In this document: one piece after another, positions 15,250-38,035 of the stretch
How positions within the stretch are numbered: position 1 is the stretch's first letter
Layout of the letters: every line of letters starts with the position of its first letter
Assembly: GCA_903822545.1 (NCBI GenBank)
Contig: CAIJPN010000069.1
Location: forward strand, 62,001 to 126,000
Source: an uncultured Anaerolineae bacterium
GTDB lineage: Bacteria; Chloroflexota; Anaerolineae; Anaerolineales; Villigracilaceae
DNA length: 64,000 nucleotides
Direction: 5' to 3'
Made by a program: the position numbers and the translations under genes
The notes under the pieces: generated by a model
The model's input: the letters and a program-made list of their open reading frames with translations, nothing else
Databases searched by the model: none
Told to the model about the DNA's origin: nothing

Positions 15250-17343
15250 ATGAGCGCAACCATATTTCCCCTGCTTATTGCTTACACCCTGTCGTTTTTT
15301 GTGTCGATCGCGGTGGCTGTTATTGGCTGGCGCCGCCGCAAAACCCCGGGCGCGTTCCCACTTTTCATATTTGCCATCAGTGAAGCATCCTGGACATTTG
15401 GATTAATTGCCGAAACCAGCCTTCCCACCCTGGAAGCAAAAATCTTCTGGGATAACTTACAGTTCATCAGCTGGCTGACTGTCACCGCGTCCACCATCCC
15501 CTTCGCGCTTGAATTCGGCGAGTTTTATCAAAAAACACCCCTAAAATGGTGGCTGGCGCTGCTTTCGGCCCCGGCCATTGCGGGTGTGCTGGCTTATACG
15601 GATGATCTTCACAGGCTGATTCGCCCCACGAGGGAACTGATTGAAGGGAATGGAATCTATTCGCTGTATTATCCCTTTACGAACACAGTGATCGCGATGG
15701 CTTTGTTCACCTACCTGGCAACCATCGCTGCGCTGTTTATCGTTACCTTTAAGGCTTTCAAAACCAGCGGGGAGCGCCGCATCCAGGCCGGGATTGTGAT
15801 CGTCGGCATACTTATTCCATTAATCGGCGGGCTACTGTCGCTGGCCGAACTGGTTCCAGCCTACCTGCGCGATATCAGTCCATTCACTTTTGGGTTGAGC
15901 AACATTATCCTGGCCTATGGACTGCTCCGCTATCGCTTATTCGATTTGATACCAATTGCCCGCGACCAAATTTTGAACGAAATCAACAACGGCATCATCC
16001 TGTTGAATAACAAAAACCAGCTGGCATTTATCAACCCGGCAGCAGGTAAATTCCTGGGGCTGGATCAATCCAACCTGGGCCAGCCCGCCCCTGAAACAAT
16101 TACCGGCTGGACAACCGGCGGCCTGGCACAGCAGGTGATTGAAATCCCGCAGGGCGAGCACATGCGTTTTCTTGAAGCCAGCCAGCGAGAAATCAGCTCG
16201 AAGAGCGGAACAAAAATCGGACAAATCATCCTGTTGAATGATATTACCGAACGAAAAACCATCGAAGACCAGCTCAAAGAACGCACCGATGAGTTAGAAA
16301 CCCGCTCATTAGAGTTGCTGAAAGTGACCAACCGCGCTCAAAAACGTGCCAACCAACTGGAAGCTGTCTCGCGGGTTAACCGGGCCGTATCAGCCATCCA
16401 AAACTCGCAGGAACTGCTGGAACGCATCGCCAACGTCATAGGTGATGAGTTTGGGTTTTACCATGTCAACATATACCTGATGGATGCCGTTGGGAAATAC
16501 GCCATCCTGCGGGCATCCAGCCTTGGCAGCGGGAAGAAACTGAACACCCGCGGCCAGAGCGCCAAAGCGGGCGAAACCGGGATTGTTGAACAGGTTATTT
16601 CAACAGGTCGCCCGCGCATAGCAGTTGAAATGGATGATTTGAGATTTTCCCCCAACCCCGACTTGCCAGACTCTCGGTCAGAGATCGCCCTGCCGCTGAT
16701 CCAGAACGAAAAAGTGATCGGCGCGCTGGATATTCACAGCAAAGATACAAACGCCTTCCAAAGCGAAGATGTCGGCGTAATGTCCATCCTGGCAGCTCAG
16801 GTCAGTATAGCGATCCAAAATGTCCGCCTTTTTGAAGAAGCCAACCGAGCCAGCACAGAAACCCAAACGTTATTGCAACAATTTGGGCAGGGACAGTGGA
16901 ACAAAATAGCCCTGGAGAAGAACCTGATCGGGTTCCGCTTTGATGGCTCTGCCACCGAACGGCTAAAAGAACCGGTATTGATGCCCAAACACGGAATCAG
17001 TGGCGGCGACACCGATGAACAGACCCTGGCAGTGCCAATTAAAGTGCGTGGGCAGGTGATCGGCACCCTCGGAATTCGCCCACCCAAAGGCCATCACTGG
17101 GCGCCCGATGAAATCGACATCATCAATGCAGTTTCTGAACGCATGGCCATCTCAGCCGAAAATGCGCGCCTGCTGCAAGACTCACAGAATCGCGCTGCGA
17201 AAGAGCAAACCATTACCGCAGTTTCATCCAAAATCGGCGCATCTTTCAACCTGGATAGCATCTTGCGCACCGCGGTAGAAGAACTAGGACAAATTATTCC
17301 TGGCAGCGAAGTAGCCATCCAACTCAAGCGCCGGAATGATTAG
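15250..17343 (+). CDS. 7TM-PAS-GAF sensor protein lacking a kinase (array member 8)
   Basis: 697 residues. The N-terminal 235 residues form a seven-helix region matching the N-terminal 7TM input of many histidine kinases (WTFGLIAET, FWDNLQFISW, LLRYRLFDLIPIARD). A PAS-like unit follows (NGIILLNNKNQLAFINPAA), then a coiled coil, GAF and the W...GFRF short GAF-like unit. In its own family this input normally ends in HisKA/HATPase, which are absent. The GAF is the most divergent of the set: FYHVNIY, and PNPDLPDSRSE in place of FNNPDLP. It starts three bases after the previous stop, so translational coupling is likely. Confidence 0.85.
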   Translation: MSATIFPLLIAYTLSFFVSIAVAVIGWRRRKTPGAFPLFIFAISEASWTFGLIAETSLPTLEAKIFWDNLQFISWLTVTASTIPFALEFGEFYQKTPLKWWLALLSAPAIAGVLAYTDDLHRLIRPTRELIEGNGIYSLYYPFTNTVIAMALFTYLATIAALFIVTFKAFKTSGERRIQAGIVIVGILIPLIGGLLSLAELVPAYLRDISPFTFGLSNIILAYGLLRYRLFDLIPIARDQILNEINNGIILLNNKNQLAFINPAAGKFLGLDQSNLGQPAPETITGWTTGGLAQQVIEIPQGEHMRFLEASQREISSKSGTKIGQIILLNDITERKTIEDQLKERTDELETRSLELLKVTNRAQKRANQLEAVSRVNRAVSAIQNSQELLERIANVIGDEFGFYHVNIYLMDAVGKYAILRASSLGSGKKLNTRGQSAKAGETGIVEQVISTGRPRIAVEMDDLRFSPNPDLPDSRSEIALPLIQNEKVIGALDIHSKDTNAFQSEDVGVMSILAAQVSIAIQNVRLFEEANRASTETQTLLQQFGQGQWNKIALEKNLIGFRFDGSATERLKEPVLMPKHGISGGDTDEQTLAVPIKVRGQVIGTLGIRPPKGHHWAPDEIDIINAVSERMAISAENARLLQDSQNRAAKEQTITAVSSKIGASFNLDSILRTAVEELGQIIPGSEVAIQLKRRND

Positions 17344-17350
17344 GAAAAAC

Positions 17351-18331
17351 ATGGAACAAACACGTTTCCGTTCGATACTGGTTGCAACCTTGCTAACAGC
17401 CGCACTGGTTTTCTCAATGTCGGGCTGTGGCGCTGCGCCACAAAGAACCTTCCGGGTTGGTATTGTCAGCCCCAGCGCTGCATACGAGCCGATCATCCAA
17501 TCATTTAAAGATGGCCTGGCAGAGTATGGCTATATCGAAGGGGAAGATGTTATCTATATTTACGATGGGCCACTGCCCACAAATAAAATATTGCACCAGT
17601 TGCAACAATTTGGAACCGATAAAGTTGACCTGGTTCTGACGCTTTCCACATCAACCGCGCTGGCTGCAAAACAAATCCTGGCAAATGGCAGCATACCGGT
17701 TATTTTCGCACCCATCAATAACCCGCTTCATGCCGGACTGATTTCCACAATGCGAGAGCCAGGCGGGTTCATGACCGGCATCAAAGCAGGCGGTTATGTG
17801 GAAAAAGAACTGGACTGGTTGCTGCGGGTCAAACCAAGCATCCGGCAAATCTACGTGCCATATAACCCTTACGATGTGGGTGTAGCTGAAGATTTCCAGC
17901 ACCTGAAAGATACCGCCGCCAAATTGGGCATCATCCTGGTGGAGACAAAAGTGACAAATAGCGGTGAACTCTCCTCCGCGCTGGCCCAAATGTCAGGAGA
18001 TGTTGATGCCATCCTGCTCCTGGAGGATACAACTTCGCTGGAAGGGATTGAGCAAATCTCAAAGTTCGCCATCGAAAGGAAAATACCGCTGGCTTCCATC
18101 AACAAAGATAATTCCAAAGCTGGGGCACTGCTATCTTATGGCCCCGACTTTTCTGATGTTGGCAGGCAATGCGCCCGCCTGGCAGACCAGATATTCAAAG
18201 GAATTCCGCCCGGCACCCTGCCAGTGGAATCAGCCGAACTTCACCTGAACATCAACCTGCAAACCGCCAAAGCCATCGGAATCACCATTCCCGATGATCT
18301 ACTAAAAGCCGCTGAAACCATCCTGCGCTGA
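17351..18331 (+). CDS. ABC-type substrate-binding lipoprotein (TrpX-like family), orphan
   Basis: A protein of about 326 residues of the periplasmic-binding-like family that includes TrpX-type tryptophan/tyrosine binding proteins. The signal peptide ends in a clear lipobox (FSMSGC). Family features include the FRVGIVSPSAAYEPI strand-loop, VDLVLTLSTSTALAAKQ, PVIFAPINNPLHAGL and a late LLSYGPDFSDVG. I prefer the ATG at 17351, with AGGA five bases upstream, over the in-frame ATG at 17336 that overlaps the previous stop. As with the lipoprotein at 3777, no permease or ATPase is adjacent. It sits between two GAF sensors and just before a dCache receptor, so a ligand-presenting role is plausible but unproven. 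Confidence 0.85.
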   Translation: MEQTRFRSILVATLLTAALVFSMSGCGAAPQRTFRVGIVSPSAAYEPIIQSFKDGLAEYGYIEGEDVIYIYDGPLPTNKILHQLQQFGTDKVDLVLTLSTSTALAAKQILANGSIPVIFAPINNPLHAGLISTMREPGGFMTGIKAGGYVEKELDWLLRVKPSIRQIYVPYNPYDVGVAEDFQHLKDTAAKLGIILVETKVTNSGELSSALAQMSGDVDAILLLEDTTSLEGIEQISKFAIERKIPLASINKDNSKAGALLSYGPDFSDVGRQCARLADQIFKGIPPGTLPVESAELHLNINLQTAKAIGITIPDDLLKAAETILR

Positions 18332-22994: not shown

Positions 22995-23030
22995 TTCATT
23001 TATGATTTCGCTAAAGTGTGAGAGGTGAAC

Positions 23031-23822
23031 ATGGTTTACACAATCGCAGTGTCCAATGAAAAAGGTGGCGTAGCCAAAACCACCACAACCTTTTCGCTGG
23101 GAGCCGTCCTGGCCGAAATTGGCAGGAAAGTGCTGCTCATCGACCTCGACCCGCAAGGCAACCTGACCCTGGCAAACGGCATCGAACCTCCCGAAGCCAA
23201 ACACAACAGCAGCGAAATCGTGCTCGATGGCCTATCCCCAGCCCAGGCCATCATGACCACAAACATAGAGCGCCTTTCCATCATCCCATCCAACCAGCGC
23301 ATGGCCGAAGCAGAACAATTCCTACCGGTACGCATCAACTACAGCAGCATCCTGCGAGAAGCACTGAAAGACCCCAAAACCCAGTCTTTCGATTTCATCC
23401 TGATGGACTGCCCGCCCTCGATGGGCGCCATCACCCTCAACGCCCTGACAGCTTCTGACCTGCTCATCATCCCCACCCAGGCTGAATATTTCTCCGCCTA
23501 CGCCCTGCGCGACATGATGAACCTGATCCGGCGCATACGCCGCGAATCAAACGGCGACCTGGCCTATCGCATCCTCATCACCATGCTTGACCAGCGCAAT
23601 CGTGCCCATCGCGCCATCCGCGAACAATTGCAACAGACATTTGGCACGGGCCTGTTCCAAACCGTGATCGAAATCGACACACGCTTACGCGAAAGCCCCA
23701 TTGTGGGCGTACCCATCACCCAATATCGCCCCAACAGCCGTGGTTCCCAACAGTATCGCATTCTGGCACAGGAGTTAATCGACTATGTCGAAAAGCAACA
23801 AGATACACAACCGGCTGAATAA
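23031..23822 (+). CDS. ParA/Soj-family ATPase
   Basis: 263 residues. The deviant Walker A motif NEKGGVAKTT carries the signature lysine of ParA/MinD ATPases. Other family motifs are LIDLDPQGN (switch I/Walker A' region) and FILMDCPPSMG (Walker B). Length and motifs match Soj-like ParAs that partition DNA or position large protein assemblies by ATP-dependent dimer gradients on the nucleoid. The ATG at 23031 follows AGAGG; the GTG at 23025 is less well placed. No parB or parS-like element is adjacent. Its neighbours are sensors on both sides, and its 3' end overlaps the next gene by 38 bases. Together this suggests a role in placing the sensory complex rather than the chromosome; that role is inference. 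Confidence 0.9.
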   Translation: MVYTIAVSNEKGGVAKTTTTFSLGAVLAEIGRKVLLIDLDPQGNLTLANGIEPPEAKHNSSEIVLDGLSPAQAIMTTNIERLSIIPSNQRMAEAEQFLPVRINYSSILREALKDPKTQSFDFILMDCPPSMGAITLNALTASDLLIIPTQAEYFSAYALRDMMNLIRRIRRESNGDLAYRILITMLDQRNRAHRAIREQLQQTFGTGLFQTVIEIDTRLRESPIVGVPITQYRPNSRGSQQYRILAQELIDYVEKQQDTQPAE

Positions 23823-26800
23823 ACTCTTCGACGAGATAAAAACCACAGATGGCGCGGCTCCTCCCAGCAAACCGCAAGAGCCCGTTTCGGCGGCTGAAAA
23901 CCGCCCCACACTCAGGCGGCCGGCAACACCACCCAAACAACCTGCGCGCGCCACGGATGAACCACTCACCCAAAGTGTGGCTGTGATAGAAACCCCCGCA
24001 ACCAGTGCCGGGGGCCTGTTCAGCCTGCCTTTTAAGGCCGGTGACAGCTGGAACCTGATCCAGGTAGCCGATGAAAATCGCAGCGATTGGCCGGAAGAAG
24101 ACCAGTCGCTCATCCGCCAGGTTGTAGACCAGCTTTCACTGGCATTACAAAATGCCCAGCTTTTCCAAAAAACCGAACGCCAGAATGCCGACCTGGCTGT
24201 TTTAAACGAAATGGGCCGCGAACTGGCCATCAAGCTGCTACTATCCGACATCGCCGAAACAATTTATTCATATACCAGCGAATTGATGGATACCAGCAGC
24301 TTCTTTATCGCCATTTACAACCCTGTCAGGGAAGAAGCCACCTTCCCCATCGCCACGGCAGATAATCAGCGGCTGGAACTGCCCGCCCGCAAACTCGGTA
24401 ACGGCCTGAGCGATCGGGTAATGCGTTCGCGCACCCCGCTTATGCTAAATGGCGATATCCCGGCCCAGATGGAAAGAATGGGTATCGATTTTATCGCCAT
24501 GGCAAACAACCAGGCGCCACTTTCATGGCTGGGTGTGCCATTGATGCTGGGCGAGCGCATCTTGGGAGCCATTGTTGTCCAGAGCATCACCACCGTCAAC
24601 CTTTACACCGAACGCGAACGCGACCTGCTCCTGGCCATCGCCAGCCAGGCAGCCATTTCGATTGAGAATGCTCGCCTGTTTGCTGAAACCCAGCGGCGCG
24701 CCGCTGAAATGGCCGGTCTGAACGAAATCATGCGGGCGATTTCCTCTGAGATTGACCTGGAAAAAGTGCTGATGGCCGCCTACAATAAAATTAAAACCAT
24801 TTTCAAGGTGGATGCTTTCCTCGTAGCTGTTTATGATGAGCAAAAGAAAATGGTACGTTACCCGTTGATTATAGATGAGGGTACCCGCCACCAGGGAGAT
24901 GAAGGCCCACTAAACCCGGAAACATATACAGGGCAGACAATCCTGGGGGGGAAACCCATCCTCGAGCTGTTATCGCCTGAAGAGATCGCCTACGAAGAAG
25001 AGAATGGCATCGCCCATGCGATTGGCAACACAAAAAAGGGTTCGGCATCGCTGCTGTTCCTGCCCATGCAACAAGGCGGACGCACCCTGGGAATGGTATC
25101 CATCCAAAGCTATGAGTTCAACGCCTACAACCCCAGCGACGTGACACTGATGGAAAACGTGGCCAACCAGTTGGCCGTAGGTGTGCAAAACGCGCTTTTG
25201 TTTGAAAATACAGAATACCGCGCTGCCATTGAACAGATCGTGAGCGAAATCTCATCCAGCTTTGTGAACGTTTCTTCTGAAGAAGTGGATCACCAGATTA
25301 ACGTGGCCCTAAAAAAGATTGGCGCATTCAACATGGTGGATCGCGCCTACTTATTCGCGATCGATCGCGAGCGAGCTACGATGAGCAACACCAACGAATG
25401 GGTTGCGCACGGGGTCACAACTCATATCCAAGATTTGCAAAATATTCCCGTTCAGAGCATGCCCTGGCTGATGGAGCGCATCTTCAAGCTGGAAGTCATT
25501 GCCATTACAGATGTGAGCACCATGCCAGAAGAAGCCAGCGCTGAGAAGGCAGAGTTCCAACGCGAGGCTATCCAGTCAATCCTGATCGTGCCGGTAACCA
25601 CCCAAAACCGGGTTTCTGGTTTCCTGGGTTTTGACGCAAGCACCACCACCCTGGCATGGGATGATGAAAAAATCCTGTTGCTGCGCCTGGTTGGTGAAAT
25701 TTTTTCTGGCGCATTGCAGCGCAAAAACGCCACGCAAGTTATCCAGGTTGCGCTGGCCCAAACCGAAAGGTTGTACAGCGTTATCCGCAGCGTGAGCGCC
25801 GCTAAAAATGAAGCCGATATTTTGCTGGCAATCGTTGAACCACTCAAAGCCAGTAACGTTTGGACGGCATCCCTGGCCGAAATTAGCGAATTTACCCCAG
25901 ACGGGCTGCCACGCATGGCCACGATCAAAGCCAACTGGATCAATGGCAAACTGGATAAGAAAATGGTTGGGCAAAAATTCCTGCTAGAAAACTTTGGCCT
26001 GCCCGAATTTATCCATTCAAAAAATGACCAGATTTTGACGATGGGTGATGTTTTAAATGCGCAGAACGAAACCATCAAAGCTTCTGTAACCGCCCAGGGG
26101 TTACGCAGCTTTGTCATCATCCCATTGATGCAGGGCGGGGTACGCGTGGGTTACATCACCGTCAACTGGCAAAACCCGCGCGAGTTTTTGCACGATGAAA
26201 AAGATTTCTTACAAGCAATGGTCGGCGCAGTATCCCCAGCATTTGCCAACCAGTTATCCTTGCGTGGTGCACAAGCACGCGCGGTGCAGCTGCAAGCTGT
26301 CTCTGAAATCGCCACAACCACCGCATCAATCCTGAACCTGCAACGACTGCTCGAAACTTTTGTACACCTTACCCAGCGTCGTTTCAACCTGTACCACGCC
26401 CACATATTCATGCTCGAAGATGACCACCGGAGCCTGCATGTAAAAGCCTGCGGGTGGAAAGAAGGCAGTGAACAGCAGGGAACACACGGCAGCCGCGTTA
26501 TCACCATCGAACAGGAAGTTTCATTGGTGGCCCGGGCGGCCCGCTTCCGCCAACCAGTGGTGGTCAACAACGTGCGCACCGACCCAAACTGGCTGCCCAA
26601 CCCGGCCCTGCCCGATGTACAGTCTGAAATGGCCATCCCGGTCATCTCCGGCGATACCCTCATCGGCATCCTGAACGTACACTCAGACCGTTTGAACGCC
26701 TTTGCCGAAAGCGATGTAGCCATCATCAGCACCCTGGCCGCCCAAATCGGCGTATCCATCCAAAACGTGCGCTTGCTGGTACAGGCGCAATCTCGGGCAC

Positions 26801-27033
26801 GCCGCGAACAGATATTGCGCGAAATCACCTCGCGCGTGCGCGCCACCAACGACCCCGATATGATCATCCGCACCGCCGTGCGCGAGCTAGGCGAGGCACT
26901 AAACATGTCAACATTCATCCGAATGGGCAGCGCCGACAACCTGGCGCAAAAACCCCAGGCGGGCCAACCCAAACCCGCAGCAACCGATAACGCCGGTAAG
27001 CCCGGCCAGGCCAAAGGAGGCCAGGACGAATGA
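23785..27033 (+). CDS. Soluble multi-GAF protein (five GAF domains)
   Basis: 1082 residues, no membrane segment. A short basic N-terminus (lysines and arginines within MSKSNKIHNRLNKLF) is followed by a proline/alanine-rich linker (about 25-65). Next comes the tail of a W...type short GAF-like unit (about 75-125). Five consecutive GAF domains occupy about 130-300, 305-475, 480-650, 655-820 and 830-1010, and a Pro/Gly/Lys tail closes the protein. The last GAF is the one closest to the array GAFs (LYHAHIF, PNPALPDVQSE). No catalytic domain is visible. The start lies inside the parA gene in another frame, with CAGGAG upstream, so the two are probably translationally coupled. It overlaps the next gene by ATGA. 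A scaffold or hub role is inferred. Confidence 0.85.
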   Translation: MSKSNKIHNRLNKLFDEIKTTDGAAPPSKPQEPVSAAENRPTLRRPATPPKQPARATDEPLTQSVAVIETPATSAGGLFSLPFKAGDSWNLIQVADENRSDWPEEDQSLIRQVVDQLSLALQNAQLFQKTERQNADLAVLNEMGRELAIKLLLSDIAETIYSYTSELMDTSSFFIAIYNPVREEATFPIATADNQRLELPARKLGNGLSDRVMRSRTPLMLNGDIPAQMERMGIDFIAMANNQAPLSWLGVPLMLGERILGAIVVQSITTVNLYTERERDLLLAIASQAAISIENARLFAETQRRAAEMAGLNEIMRAISSEIDLEKVLMAAYNKIKTIFKVDAFLVAVYDEQKKMVRYPLIIDEGTRHQGDEGPLNPETYTGQTILGGKPILELLSPEEIAYEEENGIAHAIGNTKKGSASLLFLPMQQGGRTLGMVSIQSYEFNAYNPSDVTLMENVANQLAVGVQNALLFENTEYRAAIEQIVSEISSSFVNVSSEEVDHQINVALKKIGAFNMVDRAYLFAIDRERATMSNTNEWVAHGVTTHIQDLQNIPVQSMPWLMERIFKLEVIAITDVSTMPEEASAEKAEFQREAIQSILIVPVTTQNRVSGFLGFDASTTTLAWDDEKILLLRLVGEIFSGALQRKNATQVIQVALAQTERLYSVIRSVSAAKNEADILLAIVEPLKASNVWTASLAEISEFTPDGLPRMATIKANWINGKLDKKMVGQKFLLENFGLPEFIHSKNDQILTMGDVLNAQNETIKASVTAQGLRSFVIIPLMQGGVRVGYITVNWQNPREFLHDEKDFLQAMVGAVSPAFANQLSLRGAQARAVQLQAVSEIATTTASILNLQRLLETFVHLTQRRFNLYHAHIFMLEDDHRSLHVKACGWKEGSEQQGTHGSRVITIEQEVSLVARAARFRQPVVVNNVRTDPNWLPNPALPDVQSEMAIPVISGDTLIGILNVHSDRLNAFAESDVAIISTLAAQIGVSIQNVRLLVQAQSRARREQILREITSRVRATNDPDMIIRTAVRELGEALNMSTFIRMGSADNLAQKPQAGQPKPAATDNAGKPGQAKGGQDE

Positions 27034-30000
27034 GTGATGATAACAGGAAACTGTTAGAAACCATTACCGGCAGCATCCCCGGCATTATCTTTGCCCTGGA
27101 CAAAAACGGCATCTTTACCATCTCAGATGGAAAGGCGCTGGCCGGGCTGGGATTGAAACCCGGCCAGGTGGTTGGACTCCTGGCGACAGATGTTTACCGC
27201 GACACCCCGGCCATTGTTACCGATATTCAACGCGCACTCCGCGGTGAAGAGTTCAAAAGCACCATCAAGGTTGGTGAAACCTACTTTGAGACAACCTACA
27301 CCAGCATCAAAACCGATTCTGGAGAATTCAACGGTGTCCTGGGGATCGCCAATGATGTAACCGAACATAAAAAAGCCGCCGATGCCATTGCCCAATCGGA
27401 ACAGCGGTTGGGGTGGATCGTTCGCCAATCGCCACTGGCGCTGATCGAGTGGAGCCTGAACTTTGAAGTAGCCGGATGGAATGATTCAGCTGAGCGGATT
27501 TTTGGCTACAGCAGCGAAGAAGCTATTGGGCGCAGCGCTGCCGGCCTAATCGTCCCGGCAGAAGTTCACCCGGAGGTTGACCAGGCCTGGCAAGAGTTAC
27601 TCACCCAAAAAGGCGGGTCGCACAGCGAAAATAAAAACATCACCAAAGACGGACGCACCATCACCTGTGAGTGGTACAACACCCCACTCGTGGCCTCAGA
27701 TGGCAGGGTTATCGGCGTAGCCTCACTGGTACAAGATATCACATCCCAAAAACTGGCTGAATCTGAGCTGCGCAATGCCGCCGAACGCCAGCAAGCCATC
27801 CTCGAAGCCTCCCCCACCGCCACAGTAGTGACGCGCATGGAAGGCCCGATCATCTACTACAACAATGAATTCGGCAAACTGCTGGGATACAACCCCTCAG
27901 AACTGGTCGGGAAAAGCGCCATCATCCTGTACCTGAATCCTGAAGACAGACAGGCCGTGCTGCAAAAATTTCGCCAGCAGGGCTATGTGGAGAATCATGA
28001 AGTAGCGATGCGCCGGGCCAATGGCAGCGGCGTGTGGCTGCTGATTTCAATCAAACCGTTTGAATACAGCGGCGAAAAAGTGCTGCTCTCCACCCTGGTC
28101 AATATTTCAGAACGTAAAGCCGCCGAAGAACTGCTGCGCGAGTCTGAACAGCGCCTATCCCTTTTAATCGACCGCTCACCACTGGCTGTGATCGAGTGGG
28201 ATGTAAACTTCCATGTTATCTCATGGAACCCGGCAGCCGAAAAAATCTTCGGCTACAAACGCCGCGAGGCAATTGGCCGGCACGCTGCCGGGCTGATCGT
28301 CCCGCTCGAAGAGCGCGAATCCGTTAACCTGGTTTGGGCTGATTTGCTAAAACAAACGGGCGGAACCCGCAGCACCAATGAAAACATCACCAAAGATGGG
28401 CTCCTGATCACCTGTGAATGGTACAGCACCCCACTCCTCGATGAAAAAGGCGAGGTTGTCGGCGTCGAATCATTGGTACAGGATGTCACCGAACGCACCC
28501 TGGCTGAAAAACGACTAAGCGAAAGTGAAGAACAATTCCGCAATGCCATTGCCGCGGCCGATGCTGTGCCATACTACATCGAATACGGCGCAGAAAAATA
28601 TCGCTTCATGGGTGAAGGCATTGAACAATTAACCGGCTATAAAGCCAACGAAATCACCCCCACCCTGCTGGGCAGCATGATTCAAGAAACCATCATGCTC
28701 GGCAGCGAATCAGGCAGATCACGCGAAGAAGCCATCGAACAAACCCGCACCGGCAACGCAGCTGATTGGAAAGCCGACTACCGCCTGCTCAATCGCGCTG
28801 GCAAAACCGTTTGGATCAGTGATGCTTCAGTACAAGTGCTGGGTGAAAATGGGAAACCCGTGGGAGCCATTGGCATTTTGCAAGATATTACCGACCGCAA
28901 AACTGCCGATGCCGCCGTACGCGAAAGCGAATCGCGCTTCCGCAGCATATACGAAAACTCAACCCTGGGCATGTACCGCACCACCCCCGGCGGAAAAATC
29001 CTGCTCGCCAACCCGGCCATCCTGCAAATGCTTGGATACAACTCTTTTGAAGAGCTGGCGCAACGCAACCTGGAAGAAGAAGGATACGATGAAACCAAAC
29101 CTCGCAGCGAATACCAGATCACCATCGAACGAGATGGCGTAATCCGTGGCTACGAATCAGCCTGGACGCGCAAAGACGGATCAACCGTCTTCGTCCGCGA
29201 AAGCGCAGCAGCCGTGCGCGATGCAAACGGCAAGATTTTATATTACGAAGGCACCGTAGAAGACATCACTGAGCGCAAAATGGCCGAAGAAAGCGTGCGT
29301 GAATCACAGCAGCGGCTCTCCCTGCTGGTAGAAAGCAGCCCGCTGGCAGTGATCGAATGGAATACCAACTTTGAAGTGCGCTCGTGGAATGCCGCCGCCG
29401 AACGCATCTTCGGCTACGGACGAAACGAAGCCATCGGACGACACGCCGCCGGGCTGGTTTTGCCAGAATCAGCACGCATGATCGTTGACCACGTCTGGAA
29501 ATCACAACTCACCCGCAAAGGCAGCGATACCAGCACCAACCAGAGCATCACCAAAGATGGCCGCGCCATCATGTGCGAATGGTTCAACACCCCGCTGGTA
29601 GACAGCAGCGGCAAAATCATCGGCATGGCCTCCCTGGTAGAAGATATTACCGCCCGCCTGGAGCTGGAAGAACAAATCGAACAATCACTCGACAAGCGTG
29701 GGCGGCAGGTAGAAATCACCAACCAGGTGGCACAAGAAATCGCATCGGTTATCCAGATCAACACCATTTTCGAGCGCGTGGTAAAGCTGGTGAAGGAAAG
29801 ATTCGGCTACTACCATGCACAGATTTTCCGTTTCGACGCTTCCCTCAACGCTGTCGCGCTGGTGGCAGGCTACGGTGAAACAGGCCGCCGAATGCTGGCA
29901 GCCGGTCACAAGCTGGAAATGGGCCGCGGCGTGGTAGGCACTGCTGCCGCCACCGCCAAACCAGTGCTGGCAAGCGATGTGCGCCAGGATCGTGACTGGC

Positions 30001-32972
30001 GCCCGAACCCCAACCTGCCAGACACCAAAGGCGAACTGGCCGTCCCGATCAAATTCGGCGAAGCAGTGCTGGGCATCCTGGATGTGCAAAGCAACGAAGC
30101 CAACACCCTCACCCAGGATGATGTCTTAATGCTGGAAAGCCTGGCCGGGCAGATCGCCATCGCCATCGAAAATGCCCGCCTGCGCGAAGAAATGACCCTG
30201 CGGCTGGAAGAAATCGAAAGCCTGTACCGCTCCATGAGCCATAAAGGCTGGGAACAATTCCGCGAAGAAAGCAATATCCCCAGCGGCTACCTGTACAAAC
30301 ACGGCGAAATCCAGGATGCCGGGAACATCTGGTCAGAAGAAATCGCAACAGCCATTTCACATGAAAAACTGGTTGCCCCGCCAAACCTGGAAACACCCAT
30401 CATCGCCCCGCTGGAAGTGCGCGGCGAAATCATCGGCACACTGGGCATCGAACAAGACCCCAACCGCCCCCTGTTACCCGAAGACATCGAGATGATCCAA
30501 TCCATCTCAGACCAGGTCTCACAGGCGCTGGAAAGTGCCCGCCTGTTCGAACAGACACGCCAGGCGCTCAACCAGGCCAACATCTTCCGGCAGCTGGTCA
30601 ACGCCACCGGCCAGGGCATCAGCATGGCAAAACTGGATTCAGAGCTGGTGTATGCCAACGATTCTCTGGCGCGCATCTACGGCGAAGATTCACCCAACAG
30701 CGTCATCGGCAACAGCGTATTAGATTACTACCCACCGCGCCTGCACACCTTTGTCCGCGATGAAGTGCTCGGTTCGGCCTTCCGCGATGATGAGTGGAAC
30801 GGCGAACTGGAAGTGCTCTCACAAAACGGTGTTGAAGTCCCAACCCTTAACGATATCTTCATCCTGAAAGACGACAATGGCGAGCCGCAATATATCGCCA
30901 ATGTGGTTACCGACATCACCGAGCGCAAACTAAACGAAGAAGCCCTGCGCCGTCAGAACGAATACCTGGCATCTGCGGCCGAAGTCAGCCGCCTGATCAC
31001 ATCCACCCTCGATCTGCCAACTCTGTTTGATGGCACCGTCAACCTGCTGCGGGCGCGTTTCGGCTACGAACACGTTGCCATCTTCCTGATCGAAGATTCA
31101 GGTTACGATGCTGTTTACATGGAAGGCACCGGCCAGGCCGGAGCAGAATTGAAAGAAAGCGAATTTTCCCTGCCAGTTGGCTCCAAATCGGTTGTGGGTT
31201 ATGTAACCGCCAACGGGAAAACCATGGTTATCAACAATACCGCACTTGACCCGCTCTATAAAAATCATAAACTGCTCCCAAACACCCGCGCAGAGGCCGT
31301 CATCCCGCTCACAGTTGGCCAGCGCATCATCGGCGTGCTCGATATTCACGCCAACGAGATCAACGCCTTCCATGAAGAAGATGTGAACGTGCTGGAAACC
31401 CTGTCTGACCAAATTGCGGTTGGTATTGACAATGCCCGCTCATACCTGCTGACCCAAAAAGCGGTAGAAGAACTGCGCGAAGTTGACCGCATCAAGACCC
31501 AATTCCTGGCAAACATGTCGCACGAGTTGCGCACACCGCTCAACTCAATCATCGGTTTCTCACGCGTCATCCTGAAAGGTATCGATGGCCCCATCACCGA
31601 ACAGCAGCAGCAAGACCTGAGCGCCATTTACCACTCCGGCCAGCATCTGCTCAACCTGATCAACGACATTCTCGACCTGTCCAAGATCGAAGCCGGGAAG
31701 ATGGAACTTGCACTGGAAGAAGTCAATCTCAACGAAACCATCACCAGCGTCATGTCCACCGGGGCCGGGTTGGTCAAAGACAAACCCGTCAAACTGGTCA
31801 AAGCCATCGCGCCCGATACCCCCTCCATCCGTGCCGATGGAATGCGCGTGCGCCAGGTTTTGATCAACCTGGTATCCAATGCATCCAAATTTACCGAACA
31901 AGGCAACATCACCATCTCGGCCACGCCGCAAACCAACTCAGAAGGTGTGTACGAAGTGCTGCTCAGCGTCACCGATACCGGGCCAGGGATCTCAATCGAA
32001 GATCAGAACAAACTCTTCCTGGCATTCTCCCAGGTGGATTCTTCTCCCACCCGCAAGACCGGCGGCACAGGTTTGGGTCTTTCCATCTGCAAACGCCTGG
32101 TAGAAATGCACGGTGGACGCATCGGCGTTCACAGCACGGTCGGGCAGGGTTCCACCTTCTACTTTACCATCCCGGCTTTCAACCAGCCTGTTAAAGAGAC
32201 CCCGTCTCAGGGCCGAGGACTGACGATCATGTGCATCGATGACGACCCGCAGATTACCGCCCTTTACGAGCGTTATCTTAGCGCCCAGGGATACAAAGTC
32301 ATTGCCGTCAACAACCCGCTCCAGGCCAAAGAAAAAGCCCAGCAGGCCAAACCCAACGCCATTACACTCGATATTATGATGCCGCAAATGGATGGTTGGC
32401 AGGTATTGGAACAGCTTAAATCTGATACAGAGACCCGCTCCATCCCGGTCATTGTGTGCAGCATCGTGGATGACCAGGCCAAAGGCTTCAGTTTGGGCGC
32501 TGCCGATTACCTGGTCAAACCCATCATGGAAGAAGACCTGGTCAATGCCATCCGCCACATCAACGGGGAGGGAAAAATCCAGGAAGTGCTGATCATCGAC
32601 GATTCGGCAGATGACCTGCGACTGATGGAAAAAGTCCTTTCGGAGCGCAGCGAGTTCAAGACCAAGACAGCCAACAGCGGCCAGGCAGGCTGGGAAATTA
32701 TCCTGAATGAACACCCACAGGCTATCATCCTGGACCTATTTATGCCTGACCTGGATGGATTCGCCATCCTCGAAAGACTGCGCATGAACGCTGAACTGCG
32801 CGACATCCCCGTGATCGTGGTCAGCGGCATGGATCTTTCGGCAGAGCAAAAACAACAACTCGATAACCTGGGGCAGCGATTGCTGCAAAAAGGTATGGTC
32901 ACAGAACAGGAATTGCTAACCACGCTAGAGCGCTCACTCAAACACATCCAGACCGAGGAGAAGAAAGGCTAA
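27030..32972 (+). CDS. Giant soluble hybrid histidine kinase: 8 PAS, 2 GAF units, HisKA-HATPase, 2 REC
   Basis: 1980 residues, no membrane helix. Approximate order: PAS 1-115, 123-245, 250-365, 373-490, 495-620, 625-750 and 757-878; GAF 905-1055; W...GYLY short GAF-like unit 1065-1170; PAS 1178-1305; GAF 1315-1475; HisKA 1488-1553 with MSHELRTPLNS (His1498); HATPase 1598-1712 (DTGPGI, GGTGLGLSICKRLVEMHGG). Two receivers follow, with Asp1781 (LDIMMPQMDGW) and Asp1902 (LDLFMPDLDGF). It should autophosphorylate His1498 and pass phosphate to its own receivers or to others. The GAF plus W...GY pair is the same cytoplasmic module carried by the ten upstream membrane sensors. Three of the PAS domains are near-copies of one another. 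The start overlaps the previous stop (ATGA). Confidence 0.92.
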   Translation: MSDDNRKLLETITGSIPGIIFALDKNGIFTISDGKALAGLGLKPGQVVGLLATDVYRDTPAIVTDIQRALRGEEFKSTIKVGETYFETTYTSIKTDSGEFNGVLGIANDVTEHKKAADAIAQSEQRLGWIVRQSPLALIEWSLNFEVAGWNDSAERIFGYSSEEAIGRSAAGLIVPAEVHPEVDQAWQELLTQKGGSHSENKNITKDGRTITCEWYNTPLVASDGRVIGVASLVQDITSQKLAESELRNAAERQQAILEASPTATVVTRMEGPIIYYNNEFGKLLGYNPSELVGKSAIILYLNPEDRQAVLQKFRQQGYVENHEVAMRRANGSGVWLLISIKPFEYSGEKVLLSTLVNISERKAAEELLRESEQRLSLLIDRSPLAVIEWDVNFHVISWNPAAEKIFGYKRREAIGRHAAGLIVPLEERESVNLVWADLLKQTGGTRSTNENITKDGLLITCEWYSTPLLDEKGEVVGVESLVQDVTERTLAEKRLSESEEQFRNAIAAADAVPYYIEYGAEKYRFMGEGIEQLTGYKANEITPTLLGSMIQETIMLGSESGRSREEAIEQTRTGNAADWKADYRLLNRAGKTVWISDASVQVLGENGKPVGAIGILQDITDRKTADAAVRESESRFRSIYENSTLGMYRTTPGGKILLANPAILQMLGYNSFEELAQRNLEEEGYDETKPRSEYQITIERDGVIRGYESAWTRKDGSTVFVRESAAAVRDANGKILYYEGTVEDITERKMAEESVRESQQRLSLLVESSPLAVIEWNTNFEVRSWNAAAERIFGYGRNEAIGRHAAGLVLPESARMIVDHVWKSQLTRKGSDTSTNQSITKDGRAIMCEWFNTPLVDSSGKIIGMASLVEDITARLELEEQIEQSLDKRGRQVEITNQVAQEIASVIQINTIFERVVKLVKERFGYYHAQIFRFDASLNAVALVAGYGETGRRMLAAGHKLEMGRGVVGTAAATAKPVLASDVRQDRDWRPNPNLPDTKGELAVPIKFGEAVLGILDVQSNEANTLTQDDVLMLESLAGQIAIAIENARLREEMTLRLEEIESLYRSMSHKGWEQFREESNIPSGYLYKHGEIQDAGNIWSEEIATAISHEKLVAPPNLETPIIAPLEVRGEIIGTLGIEQDPNRPLLPEDIEMIQSISDQVSQALESARLFEQTRQALNQANIFRQLVNATGQGISMAKLDSELVYANDSLARIYGEDSPNSVIGNSVLDYYPPRLHTFVRDEVLGSAFRDDEWNGELEVLSQNGVEVPTLNDIFILKDDNGEPQYIANVVTDITERKLNEEALRRQNEYLASAAEVSRLITSTLDLPTLFDGTVNLLRARFGYEHVAIFLIEDSGYDAVYMEGTGQAGAELKESEFSLPVGSKSVVGYVTANGKTMVINNTALDPLYKNHKLLPNTRAEAVIPLTVGQRIIGVLDIHANEINAFHEEDVNVLETLSDQIAVGIDNARSYLLTQKAVEELREVDRIKTQFLANMSHELRTPLNSIIGFSRVILKGIDGPITEQQQQDLSAIYHSGQHLLNLINDILDLSKIEAGKMELALEEVNLNETITSVMSTGAGLVKDKPVKLVKAIAPDTPSIRADGMRVRQVLINLVSNASKFTEQGNITISATPQTNSEGVYEVLLSVTDTGPGISIEDQNKLFLAFSQVDSSPTRKTGGTGLGLSICKRLVEMHGGRIGVHSTVGQGSTFYFTIPAFNQPVKETPSQGRGLTIMCIDDDPQITALYERYLSAQGYKVIAVNNPLQAKEKAQQAKPNAITLDIMMPQMDGWQVLEQLKSDTETRSIPVIVCSIVDDQAKGFSLGAADYLVKPIMEEDLVNAIRHINGEGKIQEVLIIDDSADDLRLMEKVLSERSEFKTKTANSGQAGWEIILNEHPQAIILDLFMPDLDGFAILERLRMNAELRDIPVIVVSGMDLSAEQKQQLDNLGQRLLQKGMVTEQELLTTLERSLKHIQTEEKKG

Positions 32973-32974
32973 CC

Positions 32975-34630
32975 ATGGGACACCAGATTCGCTGTATCGA
33001 TTGCGGTCATACCGAAACATACCATCCTCGCACCATCAACTGCTCCAAATGCCACAGTCCCTGGCGTGAAGTCGTGTACGATTACGACAAAGTTGCCCAA
33101 ATCTTCAGGAATGAACTTCCGCATCGCACCTTTGACCTGTGGCGATATAAAGAACTGCTGCCGGTCAACAAACCGATCCACACCCTGAGCATGGGCGAGG
33201 GCGGCACACCGCTCATCCGCGCCGTTAATCTGGGCACGATGCTTGGCTGTGAGAATATCTTCATCAAAGATGAGCGCCAGGGCCCCACAGCATCCTTCAA
33301 AGACCGCCAGGCCGCCGTGACAATTGCCGTGCTAAAAGAAGCTGGCGTAACCGAAATGGTGGCGGCCTCCACCGGCAATGTCGCCATCGCCTACTCAGCC
33401 TTCGCAGCCCGGGCGGGCATCAAACTGTGGGCTTTTGTCACCAGCTTAGTTCCGGCGGTCAAAATGCGCGAGATCGCACTGTATGGCAGCCAGGTAGTCA
33501 AAGTAACCGGCTCATATGACCAGGTAAAAAAGATCGCCGCCGAATTTGCCGAACAACGCGGCCTGTATCACGACATGGGCGCAAAAACCATCACATCGGT
33601 AGAGGGGATGAAAACCATCGCCTACGAAGTGGCTGAACAACTGACCCAGGAAATCGGCCCGAGCGAAAACGGCCTGTGGCGCACCCCCGATTGGTACATC
33701 CAGGCCATCAGCGGTGGGCTGGGCCCCATTGGCGTTGCCAAAGGCTTCCGCGAACTCAAAAATATGGGCTTCACCGAACACCTGCCTGGCCTGATCGGCG
33801 TGCAGGCCGAGGGTTGCGCCCCCATGGTGCAGGCCTGGAAACAAAACCACGAAACCGCCGAACCCGTCCTGACCCCAAAAACCCACATTGAGACCCTCGC
33901 CACCGGCACCCCAGGGCGATCCTACGAATTCCTGCGCGCCCAAATGAAAAAAAACCGGGGGATGTTTGAAAGCGTCAGCGATGATGAAGCCTTCCGCGCC
34001 ATGCACATCCTGGCAAAAATGGAAGGAATCTCTGCTGAACCGGCCTCTGCAGCCGCTTTTGCCGGGCTTTTCAAACTGGTTCGCTCCGGGGCAATCAAAT
34101 CAACCGATATTGTGGTAATTAACTGCACCGGCCATACCCTGCCAGCCGAACCACTTGTGCTCGGCAGCGGCTGGGCGCGCAACGTGGTGCTCCCGCAGCA
34201 AGAGCAAGCCCCCCAGGCCGATGGCCTGCTGGCCGCCCTCAGCCGCGTGGCCCCAGACCGTTTCCCGCGCGTCGCCATCGTAGACGATACCCCAGACGCC
34301 CGGCGGCTGATCCGGCGCATCCTGCAATCGCAGGGCGAATACACCATTTTTGAAGCCACCAACGGCAAAGAAGCCATCGAACTTGTTAATCGCGAACATC
34401 CCGACCTGCTCATCCTCGACCTGATGATGCCCGAATCAGACGGTTTTGCCGTACTCGACGCGCTCAAATCCAACCCTGAGACCGCCCAAATACCGGTCAT
34501 CGTCTCCACCGCCAAAGAACTAACCAGCGAAGAAAAACAACGCCTGCAAGGACAAATCCAGGCATTGATGCAAAAAGGCGATTTCATGAGTGACGACTTC
34601 CTGGAGGAAGTAAAATCGCTGATTAGATAA
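32975..34630 (+). CDS. Threonine synthase fused to a C-terminal receiver domain
   Basis: 551 residues. Residues 1-40 hold a four-cysteine zinc-ribbon-like segment (CIDC, CSKC). Residues to about 395 are a PLP fold-type II enzyme of the threonine synthase family: ASFKDRQ with the PLP lysine at Lys109, ASTGNVAIAYSAFAARAG, and a late INCTGH. Threonine synthase converts O-phosphohomoserine to threonine and phosphate. After a Gln/Ala-rich linker (about 395-425) comes a receiver domain with VAIVDDTPDARR and phospho-acceptor Asp482 (LILDLMMPESDGF). Both halves look intact. The gene starts two bases after the giant kinase stop, so its receiver is a natural target for that kinase; that link is inference. 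The enzyme assignment could also cover a related PLP lyase. Confidence 0.88.
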   Translation: MGHQIRCIDCGHTETYHPRTINCSKCHSPWREVVYDYDKVAQIFRNELPHRTFDLWRYKELLPVNKPIHTLSMGEGGTPLIRAVNLGTMLGCENIFIKDERQGPTASFKDRQAAVTIAVLKEAGVTEMVAASTGNVAIAYSAFAARAGIKLWAFVTSLVPAVKMREIALYGSQVVKVTGSYDQVKKIAAEFAEQRGLYHDMGAKTITSVEGMKTIAYEVAEQLTQEIGPSENGLWRTPDWYIQAISGGLGPIGVAKGFRELKNMGFTEHLPGLIGVQAEGCAPMVQAWKQNHETAEPVLTPKTHIETLATGTPGRSYEFLRAQMKKNRGMFESVSDDEAFRAMHILAKMEGISAEPASAAAFAGLFKLVRSGAIKSTDIVVINCTGHTLPAEPLVLGSGWARNVVLPQQEQAPQADGLLAALSRVAPDRFPRVAIVDDTPDARRLIRRILQSQGEYTIFEATNGKEAIELVNREHPDLLILDLMMPESDGFAVLDALKSNPETAQIPVIVSTAKELTSEEKQRLQGQIQALMQKGDFMSDDFLEEVKSLIR

Positions 34631-34652: not shown

Positions 34653-35600
34653 ATGTCAAACAGAACACGACAGAGCATAGGCATCATCGCAGCTCTGTCA
34701 TCGGCCACGTTTTTAGGGCTGGCTCCCGTCTTCGGGCGCATCGCAATCACGCAAAGCGGATTTTCCCCCTTGTCGGCAGTAGCACTACGCACTGGCATGG
34801 CTGCTTTGCTTGTGTTCTTGTTTATGTTCATCTTCCGAAGATCATTTCTCTACATTTTCCCGGTAGGGCTGGTGGGGTGCATCCTGGCAGGATCGATTAA
34901 CGGTCTCGGTTCGTTGCTGTACTATATGGCCCTCGGCCATCTCTCAGCCAGCGTGGGACAACTACTTTACTCACTTTACCCACTTTTTGTGGCCCTGTTC
35001 TCCGTTCTAGATAAACAAATCCTGACGCGAATGACCATCCTGCGCTCACTCATGGCCCTGGCAGCAGTTATCATGCTGACCATGGATGGCAACCTGAAAG
35101 CCCCCGCCGGCGCAGTCATCATGATGATCGGTTCCGCAGCCCTATATGCGCTGCACATCCCCATCAACCAGCGCGTCCTGTATGAAATCCCCGCCCCCAC
35201 CGTCACCGTTTACACCTTGCTGGCAATGTCAGCCGTGACCATCCCGGCCTACCTGATCTTCGACCGGCAAACCCCGCCCACCAGCCCCACCCTATGGTGG
35301 CCGATCATCATGTTGACGATGGTGACACTGGTCTCACGCCTGACACTTTTCCTCGGTATCAAAAATATTGGCGGCACCCAAACTGCCCTGCTGGGGCTGG
35401 GAGAACTGCTGATTACCATTACCTTGAGTCATTACCTGCTGGATGAAAAACTGAGCGGGCTCCAACTGATCGGGGCAGCCATACTTGGTCTCAGCCTGCT
35501 GCTGGTGCGCTTTGACAAATCCGAACACTATCGCACCAAAGGCGGCTGGCTGGCCTGGCTGCACCCACCTGAAATCGACCCGTGGAATTTACAAGATTAA
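34653..35600 (+). CDS. EamA/DMT-family transporter
   Basis: 315 residues with about ten hydrophobic helices in two EamA-like repeats, typical of drug/metabolite transporters that export amino acids or other metabolites. The first repeat carries GLAPVFGRIAI and the second ends GAAILGLSLLLVRF; a hydrophilic tail of about 25 residues follows. AAAGGG precedes the ATG at 34653. It lies 22 bases after the threonine synthase-receiver gene and is the last gene of the + strand run, ending at a strong hairpin. The family includes RhtA, a threonine/homoserine exporter, so threonine export is a reasonable guess from context only. Confidence 0.88.
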   Translation: MSNRTRQSIGIIAALSSATFLGLAPVFGRIAITQSGFSPLSAVALRTGMAALLVFLFMFIFRRSFLYIFPVGLVGCILAGSINGLGSLLYYMALGHLSASVGQLLYSLYPLFVALFSVLDKQILTRMTILRSLMALAAVIMLTMDGNLKAPAGAVIMMIGSAALYALHIPINQRVLYEIPAPTVTVYTLLAMSAVTIPAYLIFDRQTPPTSPTLWWPIIMLTMVTLVSRLTLFLGIKNIGGTQTALLGLGELLITITLSHYLLDEKLSGLQLIGAAILGLSLLLVRFDKSEHYRTKGGWLAWLHPPEIDPWNLQD

Positions 35601-35657: not shown

Positions 35658-36407
35658 CTACTTACTTTCTTTCTTCCCCTTTTTCGCACTCTCCGGCTCA
35701 AACACGTACCCGGTACCGCGCACACTGACAATGCGATTATACAGCTGTGGGTAAGCCGACAGCTTGTGACGCAAACGGCTGACCAGCGGGCGCAAAATTT
35801 CTTGGGCTTCGCGCTGTGAAACATCGTAGCCTTGAACCAATAGCACCAATTCTCGATGCGAAAACACCTTGGCGGTATTTTCCAAAAACACTTTCAGCAG
35901 GTGCCCTTCCGCAGGGGTCAGGGTCTCAGTCTTTTGGCCTTTAATCACCAGCCGGCGCATCAAATCCACTTCCGTGCCATCTTCAGTGCGGAAATATTCC
36001 ATCTCTGTGGGGGCAGATTGCCCATGCTGGGTCATCTTGGCCTCGCGGCGGCTCAACCCACGTTTAACGCTTTCCAAAATCTGGGTTGGGGAGGCAGGTT
36101 TTAGCAGGTAATCATGGACACGCTGCCGCAGCGCCTCCACCGCTGATTCCATGGAGCCATAAGCGGTCAATAACACAATTTCAGTATCTGGAGAAACCTG
36201 GCTGGCAACCTGGACGACATCCAGGCCATTCATGCCAGGCATTTTCAAATCCAGCACCATCAAATCGACAGAATATTTACGAACATGGTCAACTGCCGCC
36301 TCGCCATTTGCCACAGCCGTGACATGATAACCCTCGAGACGCAAAATATCGCTCAAAGATTGGCGGGCGATTGGTTCATCATCGACTACAAGGATATTGG
36401 GTTTCAT
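35658..36407 (-). CDS. OmpR/PhoB-type response regulator
   Basis: 249 residues. An N-terminal receiver (about 1-115: ILVVDDEP, phospho-acceptor Asp53 in VLDLKMPGMNG, then LLTAYGS and LKPA) is joined by a linker to a winged-helix DNA-binding domain (about 150-240, ending VRGTGYVF). It should bind DNA when phosphorylated. GGAG upstream supports the start at 36407. It is the last gene of a three-gene - strand operon after two histidine kinases, which are its likely phosphodonors. The C-terminus is Lys-rich (KKGKKESK). Its targets are not evident from the window. Confidence 0.92.
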   Translation of the reverse strand: MKPNILVVDDEPIARQSLSDILRLEGYHVTAVANGEAAVDHVRKYSVDLMVLDLKMPGMNGLDVVQVASQVSPDTEIVLLTAYGSMESAVEALRQRVHDYLLKPASPTQILESVKRGLSRREAKMTQHGQSAPTEMEYFRTEDGTEVDLMRRLVIKGQKTETLTPAEGHLLKVFLENTAKVFSHRELVLLVQGYDVSQREAQEILRPLVSRLRHKLSAYPQLYNRIVSVRGTGYVFEPESAKKGKKESK

Positions 36408-36454: not shown

Positions 36455-38035
36455 CTAACTACGCATGATTGGCAATAAGACCCTGAAACAGGCTCCGGGG
36501 TTATGATCTGGCAGCAGGTCAAGCGCGCCGCCGTGCGAAGCAACAATATCGTAGCTGACGGAAAGCCCCAGCCCGGTGGTGCCTTTGGTACTGGTGAATG
36601 GCTCAAAGATGGTTTCTTGCAATTCCACCGGGACGCCCGGGCCGCTATCCTGGAACAGGATTTCAACCATTTTGCGTTTCTGGGTAATGCTGATGCGCAA
36701 ATCGCCACCCTGTGGCATGGCATCAAAAGCGTTTAAGATAATATTGATAAAAACCTGTTCAATCTGGTTGCTGATGGCCTGGACGCTCGGCAGGCTGGCA
36801 GGCCAGGAAGTTGTCACCCGGATGCCGCGCTCGCGCAGTTGCTGGCTCAACAGGTTGAGCACATGCTCCAGCAGGTCGAGCACCTGGACTGGTTTGAATT
36901 CCACGCTGGGGCGATAAAAATCTAGCATGCGCTGGACGGTGGTCATCAGGCGTTCAAGTTCCTGGCTGGTCAGGTTGATATAGTTCTGGCGCATATCTTC
37001 GGGAATGTCGGTGCGGGTGGCAAGGTGCAGGCAGTTGCGCACCGATTGCAACGGGTTGTTGATTTCATGCGCGATGGAGGCTGTCAGGCGTCCGGCGGCG
37101 GCCAGTTTTTCGGCCTGCACCAGGGCGCGCTGTGATTCTTCGATGCGGCGCACGTAATCGCGCAGTTCATCATACAAACGGGCGTTTTCCATAGCAACAG
37201 TAGCCTGACGCGCCAGGATCAGGAACATTTCCATATCCACTTCGCGGAAAGGCGGCTCACCGACATCGCGCCCCACAAACAGGACGGATTGCAGGTTGCC
37301 AAGCGTGGTTGGAACAACCATCAGCGAGGCAAGTGCCAGGGTTTCAAGTTCAGCAGCCAGTTCCGGGGGGTTTCCTGCCCCGGCAATGGCATGAATCACA
37401 GTTCCGGCAGACATTGCCAGCCGGGCTGAATCCCCGCGATGCTTCATCAGCCCGCCTTCCGGGGTTTTGCCACGGTGAGCCAGCAGGCGCAGGCTGTTTT
37501 CTGCCGGGATATGCTGGTAAACCGCCGCGTTGGAGCAGCGCAGCTGGCGCGCAACCGCTTCGAGGATCAGTTCCAGCAAAGTATCCAGACGGCGCTCGGC
37601 AAACAAGGTTTCGGTTACGCTGAAGAGCGGACGCAAGGCCTGTAAACGGGCGATATCGCGCTTTTGCTGGTGATCTGTCAGCGCCAGCTCCACCGCCTGG
37701 ATAAGTTCAGATTTGTCGAATGGTTTCAAGATCAGGCCATCCACCCCGCGCCGCAGGGCCTGGATCGCCATTTCGACCGTGCCAAAACCAGTCATAGCAA
37801 GGATCGCCATATCTGGCTGGAGTTCGCGCACCTGCTGCACCAGGTCGAAACCGCTGATGCCGGGCATGCGAATATCGACCAGTAACAGGTCGATCGGGTC
37901 GGCGCGAAAATACTCCAGCGATTCTAGCGGATTGGTAAACGAACGCACTTCGTAGCCCGCCCCGGTGAGCAGGCGCTGGCATAACATGGTAATCCCCGGC
38001 TCATCATCCACGACCAGCACACGCTGTTGGGTCAT
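36455..38035 (-). CDS. REC-GAF-histidine kinase (receiver at the N-terminus)
   Basis: 526 residues. The N-terminal receiver (about 1-120) carries VLVVDDEPG and Asp54 (LVDIRMPGISGF). A GAF domain (about 140-290) follows, then a coiled coil, HisKA with SIAHEINNPLQS (His323) and HATPase ending in TTGLGLSVSYDIVASHGG. No membrane segment. The receiver-first layout suggests a relay: the upstream kinase phosphorylates Asp54 and this changes the activity of the C-terminal kinase, which then acts on the regulator at 35658. That order is inferred from layout. It overlaps the upstream kinase gene by four bases (ATGA), so the two are translationally coupled. Confidence 0.9.
   Translation of the reverse strand: MTQQRVLVVDDEPGITMLCQRLLTGAGYEVRSFTNPLESLEYFRADPIDLLLVDIRMPGISGFDLVQQVRELQPDMAILAMTGFGTVEMAIQALRRGVDGLILKPFDKSELIQAVELALTDHQQKRDIARLQALRPLFSVTETLFAERRLDTLLELILEAVARQLRCSNAAVYQHIPAENSLRLLAHRGKTPEGGLMKHRGDSARLAMSAGTVIHAIAGAGNPPELAAELETLALASLMVVPTTLGNLQSVLFVGRDVGEPPFREVDMEMFLILARQATVAMENARLYDELRDYVRRIEESQRALVQAEKLAAAGRLTASIAHEINNPLQSVRNCLHLATRTDIPEDMRQNYINLTSQELERLMTTVQRMLDFYRPSVEFKPVQVLDLLEHVLNLLSQQLRERGIRVTTSWPASLPSVQAISNQIEQVFINIILNAFDAMPQGGDLRISITQKRKMVEILFQDSGPGVPVELQETIFEPFTSTKGTTGLGLSVSYDIVASHGGALDLLPDHNPGACFRVLLPIMRS

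Follow-up and report, generated by a model that had tools for sequence, protein, structure and literature searches.

The gene described here lies in a stretch of 64,000 nucleotides from an uncultured Anaerolineae bacterium (the window, by which we mean the entire stretch of DNA analyzed), and it encodes a single protein in which a Cys4 ribbon, a PLP-dependent PALP domain, a linker helix, and a receiver domain follow one another in that order without an internal stop. We refer to this protein as PALP-REC. The features of the gene, followed by those of its surroundings, are listed below.

32975..34630, plus strand: PALP-REC fusion gene, 551 aa, a single open frame from ATG 32975 to the stop at 34630
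32993..33052, plus strand: N-terminal Cys4 ribbon (Cys7, Cys10, Cys23, Cys26)
33188..34126, plus strand: PLP-dependent fold-type-II domain, residues 72-384 (Pfam PF00291)
33572..33616, plus strand: residues 200-214, DMGAKTITSVEGMKT, occupying the place of the threonine synthase (ThrC) phosphohomoserine-pocket motif NS-x-NP-x-R-x-EGQKT
34160..34261, plus strand: linker, residues 396-429, with the conserved helix DGLLAALSRVA
34271..34576, plus strand: receiver domain, residues 433-534 (Pfam PF00072)
23025..23822, plus strand: ParA/MinD-like ATPase of the same gene string (Pfam AAA_31, CbiA)
23785..27033, plus strand: multi-GAF protein, overlapping the ParA-like and kinase genes (Pfam GAF)
27030..32972, plus strand: hybrid histidine kinase, 1980 aa, with PAS/GAF repeats, HisKA, HATPase_c, and two receivers (Pfam)
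34653..35600, plus strand: EamA-family (DMT) transporter (Pfam PF00892)
35658..36407, minus strand: divergent response regulator, REC plus Trans_reg_C (Pfam), a neighbor in most close loci
36455..38035, minus strand: REC-GAF-HisKA-HATPase_c kinase (Pfam), a neighbor in most close loci

A preliminary description of this DNA had placed a receiver with an acidic pocket and Asp482 in frame behind a PLP enzyme, and both Pfam and a check of the individual residues agree with this arrangement. PALP was matched at residues 72-384 (E 3.8e-67) and Response_reg at residues 433-534 (E 7.5e-21), while the receiver residue set is complete, consisting of the acidic pair Asp437/Asp438, the phospho-acceptor Asp482 (codon 34418-34420, within LDLMMP), Thr512, and Lys534. 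The PLP lysine had likewise been correctly assigned to Lys109 (codon 33299-33301), which resides within PTASFKDRQ, and the start codon is indeed located two bases past the stop of the hybrid kinase gene (TAA 32970-32972), with a Shine-Dalgarno-like GAGGAG at 32955-32960. The N-terminal ribbon may bind a metal, judging from its cysteines. The predicted structure is of moderate quality (mean pLDDT 78, pTM 0.68, with pLDDT below 50 at residues 387-417) and consequently does not resolve the interface between the domains; the linker helix is placed at residues 418-423.

It is evident that the fusion is not peculiar to the window. The preliminary description had called for a search for the same fusion in other genomes, and a contig scan limited to one genome per species recovered 36 fused relatives at 60-81% identity on as many other contigs, including those of the cultured species Thermanaerothrix daxensis, Bellilinea caldifistulae, and Levilinea saccharolytica. 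A whole-genome profile search using the PALP half as the profile detected the family in about a third of the class genomes sampled (99 of 298) and in 42 of 400 genomes of the phylum, among them families f70 and f81 outside the class; some genomes belong to both samples, and either rate reflects the way in which its genomes were drawn. All full-profile matches in the class occur in open frames of at least 535 aa, with shorter frames yielding partial matches. Among 80 inspected open frames with the family signature, 78 encode a receiver, and the other two come from a locus truncated at its end and from a broken contig; no intact unfused member was found. The window's genome itself encodes a second PALP-REC that is 48% identical over its whole length. 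Several variants were encountered as well: two members carry two receivers after the PALP domain (L074 6990-9149, 719 aa; L075 6805-8943, 712 aa), each with a single-receiver gene behind it, and one family copy (G089:C30:41916-43109) contains an in-frame TAG, which may reflect either a pseudogene or a sequencing error. A search for plasmid carriage of the fusion gave no match.

Conservation was assessed among 74 distinct members reaching down to 44% identity with the window protein. In the PALP half, no member departs from Lys109, Asn135, the glycine-rich loop, or Ser/Thr385, and in the receiver, none departs from Asp482, Lys534, Thr/Ser512, or Asp438 together with an Asp or Glu at position 437. 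In the ribbon, Cys10, Cys23, and Cys26 are invariant and Cys7 is present in 73 members (the remaining one having a gap), while the linker retains Gly417 in 71, Leu418 in 68, and Leu422 in 72 of the 74. Estimates of dN/dS are about 0.10-0.16 for the PALP half and 0.035-0.09 for the receiver where dS is unsaturated, indicating purifying selection in both halves. Based upon its spread, its invariant residues, and its low dN/dS, the fusion is a real, old, and maintained protein in which both halves are apparently working.

The preliminary description had also termed the PALP half a complete threonine synthase, which holds for its fold and PLP site but not for its curated family membership or substrate pocket. 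Structure searches, which took in residues 4-402 of the predicted model, returned threonine synthases as the top matches (Z 36-43, versus about 32 for other PALP enzymes), and of the best twelve solved structures, eleven are entries for threonine synthase and the twelfth (9k3c) is a cysteate-synthase-like protein whose sequence bears the name cysteate synthase. Besides the fold, the fusion shares with ThrC structures (PDB 2c2b, 6nmx, 1uim, 2zsj, 2d1f) the SFKDR lysine motif, STGN, and a C-terminal [TS]GH. However, it differs from ThrC by its additional receiver, its changed pocket motif and PLP-phosphate loop, its placement in a clade of its own, and its scores below the curated cut-offs, with 161.5 bits against TIGR00260 (cut-off 167.1, thus 5.6 bits short) and 280.4 bits against NF006050 (cut-off 303). 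The second copy of the window's genome (L065) narrowly exceeds the TIGR00260 cut-off (171.2 versus 167.1). ThrC-like activity is therefore conceivable, given the threonine-synthase-like fold, the 5.6-bit shortfall, and the score of this second copy.

The fused proteins group together in a tree of 46 PALP domains, as a single clade supported at 100/100 on a stem of 1.79 changes per site, separate from the crystallized-type ThrC, the L067-type, and the PRK08197-type enzymes. Alignments indicate that, throughout the family, D-x-G-x-x...E-[GSA]-M-K-T stands where ThrC has the motif NS-x-NP-x-R-x-EGQKT, and SGGxGP where it has the PLP-phosphate loop GNAGN; in the pocket segment, Asp200, Gly202, Lys213, and Thr214 are invariant in the 74 members. 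In Thermus thermophilus ThrC, the residues Asn154, Ser155, and Arg160 presumably contact the substrate phosphate. The pocket motif alone is nevertheless not decisive, since two unfused ThrC-like groups also depart from NS-x-NP-x-R and a conserved Arg/Lys at position 204 (67 of 74 members) might substitute for the missing Arg. Overall, the PALP half is probably a fold-II PLP enzyme that arose from the threonine-synthase branch and whose specificity has changed.

A further point of reference is the PRK08197/NF006050-type enzyme of the window's genome (L066), which has in common with the fusion a Cys-rich N-terminal ribbon, a glycine-rich loop, and Cys281. The loop reads GGGTG in L066 versus SGGLG in the fusion, and L066 further differs by having no receiver, by its SFKAR and EPYRxEGKK motifs, and by its NF006050 score of 559.6 bits. 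An enzyme of this type adjoins the fusion in some operons. In the second PALP-REC operon of the window's genome (L072 9893-13157), the gene order of sensor, GAF kinase, and PALP-REC is repeated; a single REC comes next, followed by an unfused PRK08197-type enzyme, which sits beside the single receiver and reads SFKAR, hence without the Asp of SFKDR. The pairing of such an enzyme with a single receiver was seen again in L077 and L079, and genomes G148 and G164 show close spacing as well.

When examining the gene neighborhood, the most consistent partner of the fusion is a histidine kinase. One lies directly upstream in 34 of the 35 close loci with room for it, the exception (L021) retaining only the last part of that kinase; an EamA transporter lies directly downstream in 35 of 36 close loci and, of 31 loci, 27 have the ParA-like ATPase farther upstream, with the caveat that these loci were picked by their sequence similarity to the window and are not independent. 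A distant set of 30 loci from other families and classes agrees with this picture: a kinase occurs on one side in 26, often in the form of a second REC-kinase (about 415 aa) immediately downstream, while EamA lies nearby in 9, from which it follows that export is not a universal feature of PALP-REC loci. In nearly all close loci, the last receiver in the upstream kinase resembles the fused receiver more closely than any other receiver of the locus does. The preliminary description had proposed the adjoining hybrid kinase as the likely donor, a proposal supported by these counts: on the basis of genomic linkage, this kinase is likely the cognate phosphodonor of the fused receiver. With regard to the wider surroundings, the ParA/MinD-like ATPase may position the kinase complex. 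Ahead of the operon (13-22994 of the window) runs a long series of genes on the same strand, several of which resemble membrane sensors judging from their first residues, while the product of 17336-18331 looks, by the same measure, like a secreted or substrate-binding lipoprotein.

Based upon these features, we propose with moderate confidence that PALP-REC is a PLP enzyme switched by a two-component system, being phosphorylated by a kinase and having a specificity changed from that of ThrC. The upstream GAF/PAS hybrid kinase would autophosphorylate at the histidine of its HisKA domain and then hand the phosphoryl group on to Asp482, either directly or via its own receivers and a further phosphotransfer step. 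The phosphorylated receiver would then work via the conserved linker helix (417-423) on the PALP dimer, altering its activity. The substrate would probably be an amino acid or phospho-amino acid and the reaction probably one other than ordinary threonine synthesis, and the neighboring EamA transporter may carry the product, or some related amino acid, out of the cell. RhtA and EamA are both members of the DMT/EamA family. Since the E. coli exporters RhtA and EamA transport threonine/homoserine and cysteine/O-acetylserine, respectively (PMC7531971), a small amino acid is our guess for the exported product. The analysis thus shows the fusion, its spread, the intact PLP and receiver residues, the linkage to kinase and transporter, and a separate ThrC, while phosphotransfer, movement of the linker helix, the change of activity and its direction, the substrate type, and EamA export are inferred. 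It is a more speculative and rather unlikely extension of this scheme that the kinase array switches an enzyme making an amino-acid-derived compound exported by EamA, in which case the output would be an extracellular signal or shared metabolite rather than transcription.

One competing explanation, that of the preliminary description, is that PALP-REC is a genuine threonine synthase that a two-component system controls directly, with Asp482 phosphorylation tuning the conversion of O-phosphohomoserine to threonine. ThrC is its best match for fold and PLP site, its scores approach the threshold, Arg/Lys204 could stand for the missing Arg, and threonine/homoserine exporters such as RhtA (PMC7531971 and its reference 10) belong to the EamA family. 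All of this must be set against the deep, separate clade with its long stem, the replacement of both the NS-x-NP-x-R motif and the GNAGN loop in every member, and the genomic context. The window's genome encodes a canonical ThrC (303.7 bits) as well as ThrB, on different contigs and outside the fusion locus, and four relatives, some of them cultured strains, have a canonical thrC immediately adjacent to thrB at a site separate from the fusion; for these five genomes, a role of the fusion as the sole ThrC is ruled out. More broadly, a further strong ThrC hit is present in 85 of the 99 fusion genomes in the class sample, and 11 of the other 14 encode a ThrC-like paralogue that is not fused; no convincing paralogue emerged from the last three (G096, G159, G124), which are MAGs of only 76-87% completeness. 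Due to these separate ThrC and ThrB genes, genome context is stronger evidence against a ThrC role than the pocket motif. We consequently regard a true threonine synthase as unlikely, and the fusion is probably not the ordinary threonine synthase of the cell. The suggestion of the preliminary description that threonine or phosphohomoserine metabolism may be an output of the sensory array is not supported, in view of the clade, the scores below cut-off, the lack of the pocket motif, and the separate ThrC and ThrB.

It is also conceivable, if doubtful, that the PALP half is a non-catalytic PLP- or amino-acid-binding sensor or scaffold and that the protein serves mainly as a phosphorelay part or phosphate sink. 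Such a role would suit the almost purely signaling character of the neighboring genes, the remodeled pocket, the two receivers of some members and the single-receiver gene adjoining them, as well as a receiver that evolves more slowly than the PALP half. Conversely, Lys109, Asn135, the glycine-rich loop, and Ser/Thr385 are retained in all 74 members, as expected for working PLP chemistry, and the linkage to EamA suggests a small-molecule product. As for the two halves being independent genes brought together by an assembly join, a frameshift, or passive read-through, nothing beyond the rarity of the fusion speaks for it, whereas the same fusion exists in many independent assemblies and coding constraint is apparent in both halves. 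These observations rule out a join or frameshift and leave the explanation as a whole vanishingly improbable; the preliminary description had named a join or frameshift, or the lack of a second genome with the fusion, as what would tell against the fusion, and neither was found, as many genomes carry it.

Fusions between receivers and metabolic enzymes are already recognized as a class (PMC5847659, section 14), so the assertion of the preliminary description that they are uncommon calls for some qualification. As for PALP-REC itself, no account of a receiver joined to a PALP or ThrC-like enzyme turned up in the literature searched, which did not extend to Galperin's two principal surveys of response-regulator outputs (2006 and 2010). 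As in PALP-REC, the attached receiver in the reviewed fusions puts a metabolic enzyme under environmental control, but the archaeal examples in that review are restricted to a family or genus and none involves PALP, whereas PALP-REC occurs in many families and in more than one class. A second parallel is provided by the extended AAT-fold Orn/Lys/Arg decarboxylases, which carry an N-terminal receiver-like "wing" (PMC8503589). Here too, a PLP enzyme is permanently joined to a domain derived from a CheY-like receiver; however, these decarboxylases are of PLP fold type I with the receiver at the N-terminus, while the receiver of PALP-REC is C-terminal, keeps all of its phosphorylation residues, and is linked to a kinase.

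Most response regulators act on DNA or second messengers. In PALP-REC, an amino-acid-type PLP enzyme carries a permanently attached receiver in a large share of the Anaerolineae, with a kinase and a transporter adjoining, and from sequence evidence it seems probable that a bacterial sensor directly controls an amino-acid enzyme in many Chloroflexota. The finding also serves as a warning that "threonine synthase" annotations in PALP-REC genomes may cover other functions. With T. daxensis, B. caldifistulae, and L. saccharolytica as cultured hosts, PALP-REC offers a testable case of post-translational two-component control of metabolism.
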